A stretch of 64,000 nt of DNA from Planctomycetota bacterium (GCA_018968885.1 JAGWZK010000008.1:1-64000), one strand, 5' to 3'; counted from the first letter of the stretch, positions 53,799 to 62,532 are shown. The notes: a model not told the origin generated them from the sequence alone. Numbers and translations are program-made.

Positions 53799-55001
53799 TC
53801 AGCGGCGGTAGGCGGAAGCCACCTTGGTGACGGCAGCGACGATGTTGGACAGATGGGCTTCGGAGAGGTCGTGGTGCATGGGGAGAGCCAGAACCTGCTG
53901 GGCGAGTGAGAAGGCGATGGGAGTGTCGTTCTTGTCGAAGCGCGAGAGGGCGGGCTGCTGGGGGAGCGAGCGCGGGTAGTGCACGGCGGAGGGAACGCCT
54001 TCGGCCATGAGGGCCTTGGCGAATTGATCGCGGGAGACCGTGAAGCGTGCGGGATCGATCTTGATGACGTAGAGGTGGTAGACGCCCTTGGTGCCGGGGG
54101 TTTGCTCAAATGGAGTGATGCCAGCAACATCCTTGAACGCGGCATCGAGGCGAACAGCGTTCTTTTGACGTTGCGAAGTCTGGGCCTCCAGGCGATCGAG
54201 CTTGGAGCAGCCGATAGCGCCGGTGATGTCGTTCATGCGGTAGTTGTATCCGACGCTCTCATGAAGGTACTTGTCAGTCTCTCCGTGAGAGCGGAGGAGC
54301 TTGATGCTGCGGGCCAGGGCATCATCGTTGCAGGAGATGAGGCCACCTTCGCCGGTGCCCAGGTTCTTGGTGGCGTAGAAGGAATACGTGACGGCATCGC
54401 CGAACGCGCCGATGGGCTTGTCTTTGTACTGGGCAAGGTGGGATTGAGCCGCGTCGTAGACCACCTTGAGGTTGTGGGCTTTGGCAAGGGCCTGAATGCC
54501 GTCGATATCCACGACCAGGCCGTAGAGGTGGGTGGCGGCGATGCCCTTGGTCTTCTTAGTGATCTTCTTGGAGGCATCGGCGACATCGAACTGAGCGGTG
54601 CCGGGGATGGCATCGACAAAGACGGGAACGCAGCCACGGGCGACGACCATGGAGACGGTGGCGATGTATGACCATGCGGGGACGAGGATCTCGTCGCCGG
54701 GGGCGAAGAGGGGCTCGTAAGCGAGTTGGAGGGCGCAGGTGCCGTTGGCACAGGTCATGGCGTGTTTGGCGCCGGTCATGGCGCCGAAGCGACGCTCGAG
54801 TTCATCGCACTTGGTGGCGGCGCGGAGCATTCCGGAGTGGAGCACGCGCACGGCAGCGCCGATGTCGGCATCGGACAGCCCCGTGGACATGAAGGGGATT
54901 GTGGTCTTGGAGATCGGGGTGCCGCCATCGATGGCCAGGCGGTTATCTGCGGCGGGAGCGGGGACTGAAATGGGGGCGTGAGGAGCGGTTGCAGTGGCCA
55001 A
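53799..55001 (-). CDS. DegT/DnrJ/EryC1/StrS family sugar aminotransferase
   Basis: 400 residues from TTG 55001, chosen because GGAGG lies six bases upstream; no ATG is available nearby. A PLP-dependent aminotransferase of the type that aminates nucleotide-linked keto-sugars for surface polysaccharides. Visible features are TCANGTCALQLAY (phosphate-binding loop), YDAAQSH (Asp to the pyridine nitrogen) and SFYATKNLGTGEGG with the PLP Lys. GYNYRMNDITGAIG is diagnostic, as is HYPRSLPQQPA near the end. No other sugar-nucleotide genes are in the window. Confidence 0.93.
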   Translation of the reverse strand: MATATAPHAPISVPAPAADNRLAIDGGTPISKTTIPFMSTGLSDADIGAAVRVLHSGMLRAATKCDELERRFGAMTGAKHAMTCANGTCALQLAYEPLFAPGDEILVPAWSYIATVSMVVARGCVPVFVDAIPGTAQFDVADASKKITKKTKGIAATHLYGLVVDIDGIQALAKAHNLKVVYDAAQSHLAQYKDKPIGAFGDAVTYSFYATKNLGTGEGGLISCNDDALARSIKLLRSHGETDKYLHESVGYNYRMNDITGAIGCSKLDRLEAQTSQRQKNAVRLDAAFKDVAGITPFEQTPGTKGVYHLYVIKIDPARFTVSRDQFAKALMAEGVPSAVHYPRSLPQQPALSRFDKNDTPIAFSLAQQVLALPMHHDLSEAHLSNIVAAVTKVASAYRR

Positions 55002-55037
55002 AGTGAACCTCCGTGTAATGAGAGCGATTCTAGAGGA

Positions 55038-55070
55038 CAAGTTGAAAGTGGAAAGGTGAAAGTTGAAAGC
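55038..55070. repeat. Degenerate GAAAG-containing repeats
   Basis: Four GAAAG/GTGAAAG-like units follow one another in the 159-base gap between the aminotransferase and the first adaptor gene. They resemble simple-sequence filler common between genes in such genomes; no function is assigned. Confidence 0.3.
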
Positions 55071-55160: not shown

Positions 55161-56141
55161 ATGAAGTGCATCTCACGAGCAGTAGCGGTGTGCGGCGTTG
55201 CCGCGGTTGTCGGTTTTGCCGCGCCCAGCCAAGGGCGGGTGTGGTTATCCGGTCCTGCGGGCACGGAGTCAAGCCCGGGCGTCGGCGCACAGATGATGAA
55301 GGCAGTGGACCTGTTTGCCGGGCACAAGACGTTCACGCGTCCAAACCGGGATGCCCAGATGGGTTTCAGTGTGCCGCAACGCGTGCTGGAGGTGATCGGT
55401 AGGAGCGGCATGCGGGTGAAGAAGGATGATTTGATCGTGCGTGGCGATGATGTAGAGGCCGCGGCGGTGTTGAAGTTGCAGGAAGTGCGAGCCAAGAGCA
55501 AGGCGACGGTGGACAAGGCCAAGGCAAGCATGGACCTGACAAAGTTGGAGTATGACAAGACTCAGCAGGCGAGCAGCGGTGGTGGTGCAAATCCGCAGGA
55601 GTTGGATCGTGCGCGGCTGAGCTTTGAAGCGGCAAAGGCGGACTACGCCGCGGCGGTGGTGCAGCAGGAGCAGGAGGAGTTAAGCGTTGACCGATTGAGG
55701 GCGAGCGTGGAGCGATATCGCCTGCGTGCCCCGTTTGACGGGATCGTGGACTTTGTGAAGGTTGATCCCGGGCAATCGACGACGGAGAACGAGAAGATCG
55801 CGCGAGTGGTGAATCTCTCCCCGATCTGGATTGATGTGCCCGCGCCGACGGATGAGACGATTCGCCTGGGGAGCAAGGTGGGGGACAAGGCGTGGGTGCT
55901 TGTGGAGATGTCTGGTGTGCCCAAGGTGCTGGAAGGGAAAGTGATTGAGGTGGCACCAACGGGTGATGCGAGCAGCCGCACAAGGCAGTTGCGGTTGGAG
56001 GTTGCCAATCCGGATAAGCCGGATGGAAGTCCAGGCGACGTGGTGGCCGGGGAGCCGGCGTGGGTGCGTTTGAGTGCACCGACTGAGGCGTTTTCCAAGC
56101 AGTTTGGTGGCGTGGCGACGGCTGGAGGGTTGCGCAAGTGA
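55161..56141 (+). CDS. Secreted HlyD/RND-type adaptor (membrane fusion protein)
   Basis: 326 residues. Residues 1-25 are a signal peptide ending in a Ser-Gln-Gly region. A barrel-sandwich (lipoyl-like) half lies at about 65-95. A helical hairpin follows at about 100-185 (KATVDKAKASMDLTKLEYDK, then RARLSFEAAKADYAAAVV). The second half YRLRAPFDGIVDFVKVDPGQ lies near 187-210, and then beta-barrel domains. It is the layout of periplasmic adaptors that link an inner-membrane pump to the outer membrane. There is no membrane helix besides the signal. The last four bases overlap the next gene, so it is coupled to the GAF-HlyD protein. Confidence 0.88.
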   Translation: MKCISRAVAVCGVAAVVGFAAPSQGRVWLSGPAGTESSPGVGAQMMKAVDLFAGHKTFTRPNRDAQMGFSVPQRVLEVIGRSGMRVKKDDLIVRGDDVEAAAVLKLQEVRAKSKATVDKAKASMDLTKLEYDKTQQASSGGGANPQELDRARLSFEAAKADYAAAVVQQEQEELSVDRLRASVERYRLRAPFDGIVDFVKVDPGQSTTENEKIARVVNLSPIWIDVPAPTDETIRLGSKVGDKAWVLVEMSGVPKVLEGKVIEVAPTGDASSRTRQLRLEVANPDKPDGSPGDVVAGEPAWVRLSAPTEAFSKQFGGVATAGGLRK

Positions 56142-58153
56142 TTGATATGTCGAGTGTCAAGGCCACGGGGTGGCAGCGTGTGGTGGCAGAACTGGCCGCG
56201 CCGGTAAGTGATGACCGGACATTTCTGGCCCGGCTCTTGTCGATTTTGGGGCAGGTGTCAAGCGCCAAGCAGGCGGTGCTTTTTGGCTTGAATGTGAAGC
56301 CGAACGATGCGGTGGAAGGTGGCGCGGCGGGATCGGCCCCTTCGACGATCATTGAGCATCGTGCCGCGATGATCTGGGTGGCCGGTGGCGCGACGACGCC
56401 CGGCGGCCTGGACACGCAGGTGAATGATGAATCGAGCATTGAGTTTCTCAGCGATGTGAAGGGCGCCGCGCGGAATGTGACCGCGTCGCGGGCTCTGGGT
56501 GTTTTCGGGATCGAGAAATCGGACCTGATGTATGCCGAGCAGCAGGGGACGGTGGTTGCGATTCCGATCATGGGCGGCGCTCCTGGCGAAGCGGGAGCTG
56601 GTGAAGTCCGCGCGGTGATCACCCTGTTGCTCGAGGCACGCTCGCGTCAGGCCCTCCAGACGACGCTGGCGCTGATCGAGGTGCTGGCGGGTTATTGCTT
56701 CCTGCACAGCGCGAATCAGAATCTGAGAAGGACGCGTCAGGCAAGCGCATCGCTGGATTTGGCTGCGAGATTGATCGCGGCGATCAACGGCGCCAACAAC
56801 TACAAAGGCGCGAAGCTGCAGTTCGTGAATGACCTGTCGCGGCATGTGAAGGCCGAGCGTGTGTCACTGGGCTGGGTGCTGGGTGGTGCCAAGCCGCGGG
56901 GCAAGGTGTATTGCCGCGTGGTGGCGATGAGCGACACGGAGAATGTGGATCGGCGGATGGTGGCGGTGCAAAAGATAGAAGCGGCGATGGATGAGTGCAT
57001 GGATCAGGGGCAACCGGTGCTGTATCCGTTGCCTATGCCGCAGGGTGATGAAGCGGATTTTCTGCTGAATCAGGCGATTGTGCATGCACATCGTGAATTG
57101 GCAGCGCGTGATGCGCGATTGAAGATCGCTTCGCTGCCGATGCGTGTGAATGAGCGGATCGTGGGTGTCTTGACGATTGAGACGGTTCAGGATGAGCCGC
57201 TGTCGATTCAGACGCTGGAGCTTTTGCAAGCGACGATGGATTTGACCGCGCCGGTGCTGGAGATCCGGCGAAGTGATGATTTGCCATTGCCAGCGCGGGC
57301 GGCGGATTCACTGGCCAAGTTGGGTGAATGGGCCGTCGGCCCCAAGCACACCGTGTGGAAGATCGCGGGCATCGCGGCATCGGTGGCGTTGCTGCTGGCG
57401 GCGGTGATTCCGCTTCCATATCGCGTGGGTGCCGAGATGGAATTGCAGCCACGCAATCCCCGCACCATCTCCGCTCCCTTTGAGGGCATCATCAAAACAC
57501 TCCCCGAGGGAAGCAAGCCGGGCGAGCGCGTCAGCATCGGCCAGACACTGGTGGAGATGGATACGACGGAGATGCAGTTGCAGCGTCTGGATGCCCTGGC
57601 GCAGATCACGCAGGCTGAAAAGCAAGCGGATGAGGCGCGGCGCAAGGGTGAGATGGCTCAGGCGCAGCAGTATCAGGCCCGTGCCGAGCAGAGCAAGGCA
57701 CGCGTCGCGCTCTATGACAATCGCATTGAGCAGGCCAAGCTGGTGTCGCCTGTGAACGGCATCATCATCGCAGGCGATCTGCGTGATCGCGTCGGCGCCA
57801 GCGTGCCGACGGGTCAGCAGCTTTACCAGATTGCGGATGTGACGGACATGCTGGTGATCGCCAAGGTTGACGACCGCGACATCTCCCTCATCGAGATTGG
57901 ACAGACGGGCGAAGTGACGCCCAAGGCCGATCCCTCGCGCGAGTTCAAGTTCACGGTCGAACGTATCGTGCCCCTCTCCGAGGCCAAGGAAGGCGCGAAT
58001 ACCTACGAAGTGCGCTGCAAGCTGGAGGCGGGCTCTCCGGGCTTGCGGCCTGGCATGCAGGGGCAGGCGAAATTCAACGTCGGCAAGAAGTCACTGCTAG
58101 CCATTGGCAGCCGGCGGATTGTGGATCAACTTCGGCTGTGGCTGTGGTGGTGA
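56138..58153 (+). CDS. GAF domain fused to HlyD-type membrane fusion protein
   Basis: 671 residues from the start at 56138 (GTGA overlap). The N-terminal 400 residues are cytoplasmic. A variable part at 1-200 is followed by a GAF domain at about 205-390 (FVNDLSRHVKAERVSLGWVL, then RVNERIVGVLTIET). One membrane helix lies at about 407-427. The C-terminal part is a membrane fusion protein: lipoyl half RTISAPFEGIIKTLPEG near 445, helical hairpin near 480-535, second half AKLVSPVNGIIIAGDLRDRV near 540, then barrel domains. GAF domains bind small ligands, so adaptor and sensor are joined in one chain across the membrane. Close homologues in other phyla are not known to me. Confidence 0.85.
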   Translation: MIDMSSVKATGWQRVVAELAAPVSDDRTFLARLLSILGQVSSAKQAVLFGLNVKPNDAVEGGAAGSAPSTIIEHRAAMIWVAGGATTPGGLDTQVNDESSIEFLSDVKGAARNVTASRALGVFGIEKSDLMYAEQQGTVVAIPIMGGAPGEAGAGEVRAVITLLLEARSRQALQTTLALIEVLAGYCFLHSANQNLRRTRQASASLDLAARLIAAINGANNYKGAKLQFVNDLSRHVKAERVSLGWVLGGAKPRGKVYCRVVAMSDTENVDRRMVAVQKIEAAMDECMDQGQPVLYPLPMPQGDEADFLLNQAIVHAHRELAARDARLKIASLPMRVNERIVGVLTIETVQDEPLSIQTLELLQATMDLTAPVLEIRRSDDLPLPARAADSLAKLGEWAVGPKHTVWKIAGIAASVALLLAAVIPLPYRVGAEMELQPRNPRTISAPFEGIIKTLPEGSKPGERVSIGQTLVEMDTTEMQLQRLDALAQITQAEKQADEARRKGEMAQAQQYQARAEQSKARVALYDNRIEQAKLVSPVNGIIIAGDLRDRVGASVPTGQQLYQIADVTDMLVIAKVDDRDISLIEIGQTGEVTPKADPSREFKFTVERIVPLSEAKEGANTYEVRCKLEAGSPGLRPGMQGQAKFNVGKKSLLAIGSRRIVDQLRLWLWW

Positions 58154-58174
58154 GCCAGCGATGACGTGACCGAT

Positions 58175-58192
58175 GCCGCGCACAGTCGCGGC
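58175..58192 (+). other. 6-bp hairpin between the GAF-HlyD and M50 genes
   Basis: GCCGCG and CGCGGC flank a six-base loop within the 114-base gap that separates these two genes. The gap contains no coding frame of note. The hairpin may be an RNA-processing or attenuation site, since the other genes of the cassette are close together. Confidence 0.35.
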
Positions 58193-58267
58193 AGGTCGAA
58201 ATGAACGGCGAAACCTGAACGCCAGGACATGAACGCCAAGTGATACACGCGGAGCAATGAGCAAGGC

Positions 58268-60448
58268 ATGAGCGCAGAACGTCCGACATTCTCCCCATTC
58301 TGGCATCGCGTGAGAGCGATGAAGCCCAGATTGCGTCCGCACGTGCAATCAACGCGGCAGTTCTACCGCGGGCAGCGTTGGCACGTGGTCCATGATCCCT
58401 CCAGCAATCAGTATTACCGGCTGAATCCGGTGGCGTATGAGTTCGTCGCGCTCCTGGACGGCAAACGCACGGTCGAAGAGTGCTGGACGTTGGTCTTGCA
58501 GAATCATGGCGATTCGGCGCCGACGCAGCATGAGGCGATCACGCTGATCAGCCAGATGTACAGCAGCAATCTGCTCGCGGTGGATGATTCGCCCGAGGTG
58601 GATCAGTTGCTGCGTCGCGGCACCGAACGCCGCAGCAAGATGATCAAGCAGCAGGCCATCGGCCTGATGTACTTCAAGCTGCGTCTTTTCAATCCCAATC
58701 ACATCCTCGAATGGATCGAGCCGATCATGCGGCCGGTGCTGAACCGGTGGGGCCTGATCGCCTGGATCGGGCTGATTGTGGCTGCACTGATCGCGCTGAT
58801 CCCTCATTGGAGCGAACTCAAGAACGGTGTGGACGACACCATCGCCAGCGCTAACTGGGGGTGGCTGGCAGTGGTATTTGTGGTGACCAAACTGTGGCAC
58901 GAAACCGGTCACGGAGTGCTGTGCAAGCGATTCGGGGGCAACGTCCCCGAGTTTGGCGTGATGATGCTGGTGCTGTTTCCTTCGCCGTTTGTCGATGCTT
59001 CGGCGTGCTGGGCGTTCCAGAGCAAGTGGCAGCGCATGGCCGTGGGTGCCGGCGGCATGCTGTTTGAGCTTGCCCTCGCTGCGGTCGCAGCGTTTGTGTG
59101 GCTGAGTGTGCCGGATGGCCTGCTCAAGCAGATCGCTTACAACGCGATGTTTACGTGCAGCGTGAGCACGATTCTCTTCAATGCCAACCCGCTCATGCGG
59201 TTTGACGGGTACTACATCCTCAGCGACCTGTTGGAAATGCCCAACCTGATGCAGCGTTCGACGCAGATGCTCAAGTATTGGGCCCACAAGTTCATCTACC
59301 GCCTCAAGGACATCAATCCCCCGGCGACGGATCGCGATGAACTGGCGATTCTGACGGTCTTTGGCATTGCTTCGACGGCGTATCGCGTCTTCCTCTTTTT
59401 CTCAATCACGTTGTACGTGCTGGGCAAGATGTTCGCGATCGGGTTATTCCTGGCGGTGTGGTCTGCCGCGGCGTGGTTCATACTGCCGACAGGAACTTTT
59501 ATTCACTGGCTGGCCACAAGTCCCAAACTCGCAGACCATCGCTGGCGTGCGGTGGGTGTCTCGATGGCCCTGATCGTCGCGGCTGTCCTTCTCATTGGTG
59601 TCATCCCCATGCCCGATCGCAGGCGTGGCGAAGGGGTGATCGATTCCAGCACCAAGTCGGGAGTCTTCTCCTCGGTTGATGCCTTTGTCAAAGAGGTGCA
59701 CAAGCGACCCGGCGAGTTTGTCGCCAAGGGTGAACCCATCGTGACGATGGAGAGTTCGCAGTTGGAGGCCCAGATCCGCCTGATCGATGGCTATCTGGCC
59801 GAGGCGACGGCTGTGGAGCGTGAGGCGACCGCAGGAAACCCGGCGGCGGCTCAGGTGGCGCGTCAGCGCGTCGCGACGTTACAGGAGCAGAAGCGATTCT
59901 TCCTGGAAAAGCAAGACAAGCTGGTGGTCCGCGCCCCGCACTCGGGTGTGATCACAGGTGCTGATCCGCAGAGTCAGTTGGGTGCGTTCCTCAAGGAAGG
60001 AAAGCCCATCTGTGACCTCATCGATGTTTCCAAACTGCGCGTGACGGCGCTGATGGATCAGACCGAGGCGCTGTGGCTGTATGAGCAGCCCCGTGAGGCG
60101 TACGACGTCGAGATGCGTCTGGTCTCGAATGTCGGCGAAGTCGTAGAAGGTGGCGCGGTGCGCGTCATCGAGGCCGGCACCAGGCGGCTCGCCCACAATT
60201 CGCTGACATTTGCCGGTGGTGGCAGCATCGAGGTGGAACGCTTGGAACAGCAATCGGGCGTGATGGCCAAGCGCCCGCAATTCCAGGTCGAAATCGATCC
60301 CAAGCGCATCGCCGAAAACGCTCAAGAGGTGTGGGCCGGTTTGCCAGGAGAGCGAGTTCGTCTGCGGTTTGCACTGCCTCCGCGTCCTTTGCTGGCGCAG
60401 TGGGTGGATCGCCTTCAGAAACTCGTGCAGGGCCGAGTCAACCTGTAA
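58268..60448 (+). CDS. PqqD-like / M50 site-2 protease / HlyD fusion protein
   Basis: 726 residues. Residues 25-115 form a PqqD-like peptide-binding domain (WHVVHDPSSNQYYRLNPVAY, then FVALLDGKRTVEECW). A multi-helix M50 metalloprotease domain covers about 150-440. It has the zinc motif HETGH near 210 and the second ligand region NPLMRFDGYYILSDL near 305. After further helices comes an HlyD-type part from about 455: SGVFSSVDAFVKEVHKRPGE and VVRAPHSGVITGADPQ are the two lipoyl halves, with a short hairpin between. Both catalytic motifs are intact. M50 enzymes cut within membranes; combined with PqqD and HlyD this suggests processing and passing on of a peptide. No PQQ genes are near. Confidence 0.88.
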   Translation: MSAERPTFSPFWHRVRAMKPRLRPHVQSTRQFYRGQRWHVVHDPSSNQYYRLNPVAYEFVALLDGKRTVEECWTLVLQNHGDSAPTQHEAITLISQMYSSNLLAVDDSPEVDQLLRRGTERRSKMIKQQAIGLMYFKLRLFNPNHILEWIEPIMRPVLNRWGLIAWIGLIVAALIALIPHWSELKNGVDDTIASANWGWLAVVFVVTKLWHETGHGVLCKRFGGNVPEFGVMMLVLFPSPFVDASACWAFQSKWQRMAVGAGGMLFELALAAVAAFVWLSVPDGLLKQIAYNAMFTCSVSTILFNANPLMRFDGYYILSDLLEMPNLMQRSTQMLKYWAHKFIYRLKDINPPATDRDELAILTVFGIASTAYRVFLFFSITLYVLGKMFAIGLFLAVWSAAAWFILPTGTFIHWLATSPKLADHRWRAVGVSMALIVAAVLLIGVIPMPDRRRGEGVIDSSTKSGVFSSVDAFVKEVHKRPGEFVAKGEPIVTMESSQLEAQIRLIDGYLAEATAVEREATAGNPAAAQVARQRVATLQEQKRFFLEKQDKLVVRAPHSGVITGADPQSQLGAFLKEGKPICDLIDVSKLRVTALMDQTEALWLYEQPREAYDVEMRLVSNVGEVVEGGAVRVIEAGTRRLAHNSLTFAGGGSIEVERLEQQSGVMAKRPQFQVEIDPKRIAENAQEVWAGLPGERVRLRFALPPRPLLAQWVDRLQKLVQGRVNL

Positions 60449-60462
60449 CCTTAAAGGATCAG

Positions 60463-62532
60463 ATGTCGCAGGCGGTGTCCAAGTATCACGCGTTGTACGA
60501 ATCGCTGCTGTCGCGGCGGTCCAAGCCGGTGCTTCCCACCGGGCTTGATCGCGTCTACGGCCGCCTGGCGATGAAGCTGCGGAACAGCAAGATTTCGCTG
60601 GACTATCTGCGTGCCGAGGCCGAGGCGAGTGATCGCATTCACTCCACCGAAATCCGCGAACTCAGCGAACAGTCGCTGGCCGATCAGATCGCCACAGTGC
60701 GGGCTGCGTTTGTTCGCGGCCGTCAGGATGAGACGGCCTTGCGCCGGGCCTTGGCGCTGGTGCGCGAAGTGGCGCGGCGCGAGACGGGCGAAGACCCCTA
60801 CATCGTGCAGCAGATGGGGGCACTGGCACTCTTTCACGGGCGCATCATCGAGATGCTGACGGGGGAAGGCAAGACCCTCACCGGTTCTCTCGCCGCTCCC
60901 CTCATCGCATGGCAACGGCGCTATCTGCATGTATTCACGGTAAATGACTACCTCGCCAAGCGTGATGCCGAGAGCCGCGCCCGCATGTTCAAACGCTGCA
61001 TGTGTGAGACCGGCTCGATTCAGCAGGAGCAAGAGCCCGCCGAGCGATTCGGCATTTATGCTCGTCACATCGTCTACGGCACGCCTAAGCAGATCACGGC
61101 GGATTACCTGCGAGATCAGATTCGTCTTGGGCGCATGACCACCGCCTGGGCCGGGCGCCACATGATGGCGCAGATGTCGCACATGCCTGGCGAATCCGGC
61201 ATGGGGCCGATGATTCCCGGCTTGAAAGCGTGCATGGTTGATGAGGCCGATGCCGTGCTCATCGACGAAGGTGTGGTGCCCCTGATCATCGCGCGGCCAC
61301 GGCGCGAAGACGACATGTCCAAGGTGTATGTCAAGGCCGCAGCCATCGCCATCAAGTTGGACGAAGGCCCGGACTTTGAAGTCGAGCACGTCAAGCGTCG
61401 CGTGGAACTCAAGCGTCGCGGATTGGAACGTCTGGACACACTCTTTGAGCAGGTGCCTGATCCATTGTGGAAGGCCCGCCGCCGCGCTGAGGAATTGGTG
61501 CGTCAGGCGCTTGTGGCTCAGCACTGCTACATCCGCGGCAAGCAGTACGAAGTGGTCGAGGGGCGCATCGTCATCGTCGATGAATACACGGGACGCTTCC
61601 TCCCCGATCGCTCGTGGGAGCATGGCCTGCATCAGGCCGTTGAGGCCAAGGAAGGTGCTCAGGTCACGGCAGATCGCGAAACTCTCGCACGCCTAAGTTT
61701 CCAGCGTTTCTACCGCACCTATCCCTTCATGTGCGGCATGACCGGCACCGCCGCCGACGCCACCAAAGAAATGGAAGCGGTGTACGCCCGCCCGGTGACC
61801 AGGATTCCCACCCACAGGCCAGTCATTCGCGCACAGTGGCCGATGCGCGTGTTCCGCACCGCAAAGGGCAAGTGGGACGCGATCATCGCGAGCATCGAGG
61901 AGATCCACGCCGCCGGTCGCCCAGTGCTGGTGGGCACACGCAGCGTCGCAGCGAGCGAGTTCCTCTCTGCGAAACTCAAGGAACGCAATCTCGAGCATTT
62001 CCTTCTCAATGCGCACCACGATAAAGACGAGGCCACGCTGATCGCGCAGGCCGGACGCACTGATCTTGCCACGGGCGCAGCGATCACGGTGGCCACCAAC
62101 ATGGCAGGTCGCGGCACCGACATCAAGCCCGATGAAGAGGCAATCAAGGCGGGTGGCCTGCACGTCTTGCTGACAGAGATGCACGGCGCAAAGCGCGTCG
62201 ATCGCCAGTTCATCGGCCGCGCCGGTCGCCAGGGTGATCCTGGTTCGGCTCAGATCTTCGTTTCGCTTGAAGATGAGTTGGTGGTGCGGCACGCGCCGCG
62301 GCTGAGGGCGTGGCTGGAGCAATTCTCCAAGCTCAAGGGTGGCGATCATGCGGCCCTCGAGCGGGCCGTGACACGCTCCGGCGGGTGGGATGAATTGGAT
62401 GACACGTGGTCGTCGCGTGCCGAGCGGATTTTCAAGTTGGCCCAGTCGCGCAGCGAGGCGCACGACCGCCGCAGCCGCGAATCGGTACTCAGGCAGGATG
62501 ATTGGGTGGATAAGTACATGCCGGGGATGTGA
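60463..62532 (+). CDS. SecA-like ATPase lacking C-terminal domains (SecA2-type)
   Basis: 689 residues from ATG 60463 (AAAGGA five bases upstream); SecA is usually 830-950. The motor core is complete. Walker A LTGEGKT lies near 132, with Glu before Gly as in SecA. Walker B VDEADAVLIDE is near 259, the preprotein cross-linking region ends in VIVDEYTGRFLPDRSWEHGLHQ, and VATNMAGRGTDIKPDEE and GRAGRQGDPGSAQIFVSLED follow. After the second motor domain only the first part of the long scaffold helix remains. The helical wing and the zinc-binding tail are absent. It starts 15 bases after the M50-HlyD gene, so it belongs to that cassette and may drive its substrate rather than work at general SecYEG. 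Confidence 0.9.
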   Translation: MSQAVSKYHALYESLLSRRSKPVLPTGLDRVYGRLAMKLRNSKISLDYLRAEAEASDRIHSTEIRELSEQSLADQIATVRAAFVRGRQDETALRRALALVREVARRETGEDPYIVQQMGALALFHGRIIEMLTGEGKTLTGSLAAPLIAWQRRYLHVFTVNDYLAKRDAESRARMFKRCMCETGSIQQEQEPAERFGIYARHIVYGTPKQITADYLRDQIRLGRMTTAWAGRHMMAQMSHMPGESGMGPMIPGLKACMVDEADAVLIDEGVVPLIIARPRREDDMSKVYVKAAAIAIKLDEGPDFEVEHVKRRVELKRRGLERLDTLFEQVPDPLWKARRRAEELVRQALVAQHCYIRGKQYEVVEGRIVIVDEYTGRFLPDRSWEHGLHQAVEAKEGAQVTADRETLARLSFQRFYRTYPFMCGMTGTAADATKEMEAVYARPVTRIPTHRPVIRAQWPMRVFRTAKGKWDAIIASIEEIHAAGRPVLVGTRSVAASEFLSAKLKERNLEHFLLNAHHDKDEATLIAQAGRTDLATGAAITVATNMAGRGTDIKPDEEAIKAGGLHVLLTEMHGAKRVDRQFIGRAGRQGDPGSAQIFVSLEDELVVRHAPRLRAWLEQFSKLKGGDHAALERAVTRSGGWDELDDTWSSRAERIFKLAQSRSEAHDRRSRESVLRQDDWVDKYMPGM

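Follow-up and report, generated by a model that had tools for sequence, protein, structure and literature searches.

We analyzed a stretch of 64,000 nucleotides from a Planctomycetota bacterium (GCA_018968885.1, JAGWZK010000008.1:1-64000; referred to here in its full length as the window), in which four co-directional genes encode an HlyD-type adaptor, a GAF-HlyD fusion, a PqqD-M50-HlyD fusion, and a SecA-like protein. This operon probably serves, as a dedicated machine, to export and process large surface proteins whose N terminus bears a short, non-Sec leader with an LE.R motif. The locus is real and was already reported before; what is new is its strong link to giant proteins with LE.R leaders, together with the finding that the SecA-like protein is not its constant part. 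Planctomycetes, Verrucomicrobia, Omnitrophota, and their relatives have among the largest bacterial proteins known. Neither the LEPR-XLL motif that marks many LE.R leaders nor the operon has an assigned function in the papers that we found, and the two co-occur across phyla. The genes of the operon, as called from open reading frames (ORFs), are the following:

55161..56141, + strand: HlyD adaptor gene (gene 1)
56138..58153, + strand: GAF-HlyD gene (gene 2), overlapping gene 1 by 4 bases if a GTG start is used
58268..60448, + strand: PqqD-M50-HlyD gene (gene 3)
60463..62532, + strand: SecA-like gene (gene 4); the ORF opens at 60331, and the ATG at 60463 is the best start

A preliminary description of this region, made from the sequence alone, had proposed this gene arrangement, and we recovered all four ORFs at the same positions and on the same strand. 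Genes 1 and 2 overlap when the GTG start is used, genes 3 and 4 are closely spaced (14 bases between the stop codon of gene 3 and the ATG at 60463), and the proposed domain make-up was confirmed by Pfam matches that all exceed their cut-offs.

Conservation of the operon

We examined the conservation of the operon in 41 related genomes and in 80 further loci drawn from other species. Many of these genomes are drafts, and our first look with profiles may overlook copies; all p-values given here come from plain genome counts that ignore kinship. The M50-HlyD protein encoded by gene 3 and the SecA-like protein were both found in 34 of the 41 relatives, while the other seven (G017, G021, G024, G025, G030, G034, and G038) contained neither (p = 4e-8). 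According to the coordinates in these relatives, the SecA-like gene adjoins the M50-HlyD gene for 37 of 40 copies (exceptions are found in G020, in G032, and for one copy in G036), and the GAF-HlyD gene is usually adjacent, too. The order GAF-HlyD, M50-HlyD, SecA is kept in many phyla among the 80 loci, including Verrucomicrobia, Nitrospira, Desulfobacterota, Beta- and Gammaproteobacteria, Elusimicrobia, Spirochaetes, and Rokubacteria. This arrangement is far from chance, and the genes are regular neighbors in relatives, in agreement with the earlier idea that they jointly form an export-type system. The operon occurs twice in five genomes from the same family (G010, G013, G003, G023, and G008), and the M50-HlyD protein of the second copy is only ∼31 to 35% identical to the one in the window.

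Three kinds of additional genes recur in the 80 loci, namely, TolC family genes (23 loci), DUF3467 genes (17 loci), and very large ORFs. The DUF3467 gene (PF11950), with a length of ∼120 codons, is located directly upstream of the GAF-HlyD gene in all 17 cases (e.g., L134:7576-7935 and L160:7713-8030) and is absent from the operon in the window. Neither a type I ABC exporter nor a secY- or secE-like gene cluster recurs in these 80 neighborhoods. We rejected MsbA-like ABC genes (cluster C4) as a candidate pump, given that they are present in only 7 of the 80 loci and at variable positions.

The same gene association was reported in 2015 by Kamneva, Poudel, and Ward (PMC4452313), so that the locus is not undescribed, as the preliminary description had it. 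In five phyla, these authors found a secondary SecA_DEAD protein without SecA_SW beside M50/HlyD, GAF/HlyD, and HlyD proteins; the locus contained no ABC transporter, and a TolC-like gene was sometimes adjacent. They proposed SecA for the role of ATPase and M50 for that of pore, and they assigned no function to the locus. The locus studied here shows the same traits (SecA_DEAD without a full SecA_SW, adjoining M50/HlyD, GAF/HlyD, and HlyD). Among the cultivable hosts of the operon are Methylorubrum/Methylobacterium extorquens AM1, for which they list META1p2399-2402, and Azohydromonas australica. Substrates, leaders, and a SecA-less branch do not figure in their report; our analysis adds to it the LE.R giants as probable clients, the DUF3467 and TolC partners, a SecA-less branch, and SecA-like copies that have no ATPase motifs.

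Association and physical linkage of the operon with LE.R-leader proteins

The large neighbors of the operon in two loci (L135 and L171) start with the LEPR-XLL motif, [FL]ExLEPRxLLSAD, as captured by the independently curated NCBIfam model NF012209 (cut-off, 17 bits). Matches to this model at an E value of up to 1 were found in 33 of the 34 system-bearing relatives and in none of the 7 relatives without the system (p = 3.6e-7); above the cut-off, the numbers were 27 of 34 and 0 of 7, respectively (p = 1.5e-4). Some of the weaker matches are due to chance, since 7 of 14 control genomes also gave a match at an E value of up to 1 (1 of them over the cut-off). The association extends to larger samples: M50-HlyD is present in 18 of 19 LEPR-positive Planctomycetota compared with 25 of the 137 others (156 genomes; p = 6e-11) and in 35 of 38 LEPR-positive Gammaproteobacteria compared with 21 of the 339 others (377 genomes; p = 3e-31). 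Conversely, 23 of 28 genomes with a strong M50-HlyD match (>500 bits) are LEPR positive; in two of the remaining five, a variant motif lies beside the locus (L356 and L358). Outside the Planctomycetota, we compared 40 system-bearing genomes, one or two of which carry only a broad taxonomic name; 32 of the 40 have LEPR ORFs over the cut-off, the longest open frames comprising 17,246, 14,390, 13,640, and 13,078 codons.

Beyond co-occurrence, the genes are physically linked. An LEPR ORF of 840 to 14,112 codons lies within ∼6 kb of the M50-HlyD gene in 16 Gammaproteobacteria. Of the large ORFs in the fetched loci, 79 are situated within 6 kb, and 12 of these have the LE.R motif (0.05 in shuffles); the 17 located farther off have none. 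Altogether, these sequence comparisons argue for a strong client link between the operon and LE.R proteins. The open-access literature that we searched contained no paper tying the LEPR-XLL motif to this locus, and as far as this literature shows, the link of the locus to giant surface proteins with an LE.R leader is new.

Loci in which M50-HlyD is present and a match to NF012209 is absent fall into two groups. Loci of the first group contain SecA and adjoin a gene with a variant leader (L333, L338, L356, and L358). Loci of the second group, referred to here as branch B, have no SecA and consist of an HlyD gene, a second HlyD gene (with a GAF domain in L352 and L334), M50-HlyD, and often TolC. 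Branch B loci L334, L339, L343, L344, L350, L352, L360, and L362 are situated beside a large protein that starts with LEPRxMFDGA, LE.RIV, or LEPRVVL, and no LE.R motif was present in the stretch fetched for other SecA-less loci (e.g., L329 to L332, L335, L336, L341, and L342). Since SecA-less loci also adjoin LE.R giants, the leader goes with the M50-HlyD protein and not with SecA. The large protein next to L352 contains DUF4347, cadherin, and Big domains.

Properties of the leader and candidate cargo in the host genome

The leader peptide takes the form FEPLEPRLLLSAD, and the consensus of 51 matches is [FL]E[PA]LE[P]R[LVI]LLS[AG][DS]. In these matches it is N terminal, at a median of 29 residues past the first ATG, with a median net charge of +3. 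Its maximal mean hydropathy over 12 residues is 1.18, compared with 2.46 for TolC signal peptides, and exceeds 2.0 in only 3 of the 51 sequences; LE.R N termini lack a Sec-like hydrophobic stretch.

The host genome has a size of 3.39 Mb in 52 contigs, of which we scanned 1.46 Mb (43% of the genome) for cargo. Using a profile built from the relatives, we found five proteins with an LE.R N terminus (L256, L270, L285, L297, and L298; best score, 14.3 bits), which are candidate cargo of the operon in the window judging from their N-terminal sequence:

Contig C43: one frame of 618 codons, starting with FDHLEQRSLLSAA
Contig C5: two frames of 1843 and 2604 codons
Contig C27: two frames of 1908 and 671 codons

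In the LE.R proteins L199, L201, L205, L207, and L214 from Phycisphaerales, the sequence continues with NTVVRFETTLGTIDFELF and variants of it, which by eye appear cyclophilin-like.

Domain architecture of the operon proteins

The sites and domains of the proteins encoded by genes 2, 3, and 4 are located as follows:

57362..57418, + strand: membrane helix that separates the GAF part of gene 2 from its HlyD part (hydropathy, 2.29)
58382..58576, + strand: PqqD domain of gene 3, of the type that recognizes ribosomally synthesized and posttranslationally modified peptides (RiPPs) (PF05402, residues 39 to 103)
58898..58912, + strand: HExxH zinc site of M50; H211, E212, and H215 are invariant in 50 homologues
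59186..59209, + strand: second catalytic motif, NPLMRFDG (residue 307); N307, P308, and D313 are invariant in 50 homologues
59603..60406, + strand: MacA/AcrA-like barrel-sandwich adaptor part of gene 3, from structure comparison of the model
60859..60876, + strand: Walker A motif of gene 4, TGEGKT, intact
61240..61251, + strand: Walker B motif of gene 4, DEAD, intact
62215..62244, + strand: motif VI of gene 4, GRAGRQGDPG, intact

The product of gene 3 matches the Pfam models PqqD (31.1 bits; cut-off, 23.4), M50 (29.4 bits; cut-off, 27.2), and HlyD_3 (39.2 bits). In its AlphaFold2 model (predicted local distance difference test [pLDDT], 87.9), the adaptor part resembles MacA (Z score, 16.3; root mean square deviation, 2.3; 220 aligned). 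When the whole model was compared by Foldseek and VIA-align, adaptors filled the matches shown and no M50 protease structure was among them, an outcome that is uninformative about the protease. The nearest curated model is NF041824, the daptide intramembrane protease dependent on a RiPP recognition element (RRE), with 177.3 bits and thus under its equivalog cut-off of 300; the YydH/LiaK proteases are also among the nearest models. All of these share with gene 3 an RRE or PqqD domain fused to an M50 intramembrane peptidase that removes a leader, and gene 3 has HExxH and the second motif as expected of the daptide protease. Unlike the daptide protease MpaP, however, the product of gene 3 bears a periplasmic HlyD part, its cargo would be giant proteins, and daptide enzymes are absent nearby. 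The daptide protease takes off the leader, and daptide leaders contain the motif ELExMEAP (PMC10036551), whose likeness to the LE.R motif is suggestive only.

Gene 1 exceeds the cut-offs of the Pfam models HlyD_D23 (55.9 bits) and HlyD_3 (51.6 bits) and that of TIGR01730 (101 bits), and its N terminus, MKCISRAVAVCGVAAVVGFAA, is signal peptide-like, with hydrophobic residues 3 to 21. Gene 2 matches GAF (PF01590, 24.6 bits; cut-off, 22.4) and HlyD_D23 (69.7 bits), with HlyD_3 also over the cut-off, and contains a single hydrophobic segment (residues 406 to 424, numbered from the ATG at 56147). Its predicted topology is a cytoplasmic GAF region followed by one membrane helix and a periplasmic HlyD part. 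Hence, three of the four proteins are HlyD-family adaptors, as in type I secretion (HlyBD-TolC) and MacAB-TolC, with which the system also shares the TolC partner in relatives and the MacA-like part of gene 3. In contrast to these systems, there is no ABC, RND, or MFS pump at the locus, the adaptors are fused to GAF and PqqD-M50, and the signal would be N terminal rather than C terminal as in type I secretion.

Gene 4 matches SecA_DEAD (254.9 bits; cut-off, 24.6) and PP_bind (84.7 bits), and its motif V is intact as well. Its product, like the SecA-like family as a whole, covers the first nucleotide-binding domain (NBD1), the preprotein cross-linking domain (PPXD) that forms the clamp, and NBD2, and it ends within the first scaffold helix, of which only a stub is left; the two-helix finger, the wing, and the C-terminal linker are missing. 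The family profile aligns to residues 15 to 563 of Bacillus subtilis SecA only, and in gene 4 95 residues follow motif VI, compared with ∼612 in the canonical SecA of the host, which is a separate gene on contig C38. The scores stay under the equivalog cut-offs for SecA (501 versus 800) and for the SecA2 models (340 to 431 versus 725 to 1100). The AlphaFold model (pLDDT, 89.4) is closest to SecY-bound SecA (template modeling [TM] scores of 0.77 for 6itc and 0.76 for 5eul). SecA2 accessory secretion likewise uses a second SecA with motor and clamp (NBD1, NBD2, PPXD, and Walker motifs), but gene 4 scores far under the SecA2 cut-offs, has no wing or two-helix finger, sits with HlyD adaptors, and has no SecY2 that we could see.

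Most SecA-like copies retain the ATPase motifs (Walker A in 69 of 74 by a strict pattern and DEAD in 71 of 74). Exceptions are three pseudo-ATPases (L168:12182-14107, L182:11473-13539, and L347:11157-13109) from otherwise complete operons: Walker A, DEAD, and motif VI have disappeared from them, while a large part of each sequence still aligns to the family. The degenerate copy of Azohydromonas (L182) may not be the only one in its genome, because a second M50 locus is present there. Given that branch B has no SecA and that these three copies have no ATPase motifs, the SecA-like protein cannot be the motor everywhere; as judged from the genomes compared, it is an add-on, and we rejected it as a universal motor. 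The preliminary suggestion that it supplies the energy is therefore doubtful: the ATPase motifs are kept in the window, while the missing finger and wing, the SecA-less branch, and the motif-less copies speak against it.

Proposed mechanism and alternative explanations

We propose that the PqqD domain of gene 3 would bind the LE.R leader in the cytoplasm and that M50 would then cut it in or at the membrane, after LLSAD, by analogy with the nearest curated model, a protease that removes daptide leaders. The three HlyD-family proteins could form a periplasmic conduit to a TolC-family duct, and the second adaptor may sense a cytoplasmic ligand through its GAF part. The SecA-like clamp and motor might unfold, feed, or hold the long chain, presumably using ATP in most loci. 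As described previously, no ABC, RND, or outer membrane gene adjoins the operon in our ORF and Pfam scan of the window; the picture of a system without a duct does not extend to relatives, many of which encode TolC next door. In the host, TolC-family genes are located on five other contigs and none in the window, and the duct is probably borrowed from elsewhere in the genome. Quite possibly, the operon represents a distinct secretion pathway for giant proteins of up to ∼17,000 residues, in which PqqD reads a RiPP-type leader, a conduit-borne intramembrane protease cuts it, and a truncated SecA is an optional motor. If so, both the LEPR-XLL domain and the locus reported in 2015 would obtain one function, the leader would predict cargo in any genome, the operon would point to the export machine, and RiPP-style leader handling would be used for protein export.

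Several observations weigh against a role in the export of LE.R proteins. Co-occurrence does not amount to transport, and we see no inner membrane pore through which a giant chain could pass. M50-HlyD occurs without a motif match in 25 Planctomycetota and 21 Gammaproteobacteria (several of which have a variant LE.R next door), and four LEPR-positive genomes (G124, G286, G398, and G415) gave no M50-HlyD match. In the host itself, the LE.R candidates remain below the NF012209 cut-off (best, 13.0 versus 17 bits), and none lies inside the window. One of the four genomes, G398, contains a frame of 7373 codons with an LEPR leader on contig C57 (L367), which could be a true exception or reflect a missed copy.

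Concerning the route through the inner membrane, passage could occur via canonical SecYEG, with the SecA-like protein as a SecA2-like feeder and with HlyD and TolC spanning only the periplasm and the outer membrane. The clamp and both motor domains are kept, the model is nearest to SecY-bound SecA, and branch B could use the housekeeping SecA. We nevertheless consider this unlikely, since the SecA-like protein has neither the two-helix finger nor the helical wing with which canonical SecA works at SecY, the LE.R leaders are not Sec-like, and no secY- or secE-like cluster recurs nearby. It is more doubtful still that the M50-HlyD complex, instead of exporting the giants, retains or releases them at the surface, that they exit via canonical Sec or a different type I system, and that LE.R is an anchor which the assembly of M50, adaptors, and TolC would hold and eventually cut. 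Such retention and release would fit the position of LE.R at the N terminus of adhesin-like proteins and a branch B without a dedicated ATPase; moreover, some neighboring giants contain RTX repeats (L160), and RTX and serralysin domains are located at the C terminus of a LEPR-XLL giant of Vibrio (PMC10868602), features that often accompany type I export. However, the leaders show no Sec-like hydrophobic stretch, type I ABC exporters do not recur among the loci (MsbA-like genes are present in 7 of them only), and the presence of a PqqD domain points to recognition from the cytoplasmic side.

The preliminary description considered a peptide or protein as cargo, which would be bound, cut, and exported under the control of a ligand, with the SecA-like protein as a possible energy source. 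In the form of a small ribosomal peptide with SecA as the sole motor, this is very improbable. PqqD and M50 are indeed RiPP maturation domains, with the daptide and YydH/LiaK proteases as the nearest models, but no precursor-like small ORF recurs among the ORFs of at least 60 amino acids surveyed in the loci, the one recurrent small gene, DUF3467, is no precursor, and SecA is neither universal nor always an ATPase. We therefore rejected small-peptide cargo; the recurrent unknowns are very large LE.R ORFs, and it is protein cargo of this kind that the export-type system likely handles. Similarly, we give little credence to the notion that biofilm-forming or particle-attached bacteria simply possess both giant adhesins and the operon without functional coupling. 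The phyla concerned do show an enrichment of giant proteins (PMC11573180), but LE.R genes are physically linked to M50-HlyD in unrelated genomes, and the pattern within one order is all or none.

Upstream of the operon and divergent from it, the window contains a gene for a DegT/DnrJ aminotransferase (53799-55040, − strand), which recurs in ∼11 related loci. Since this gene is confined to Phycisphaerales-type loci (cluster C2, 11 loci), it reflects local synteny, and we rejected it as a partner of the system.

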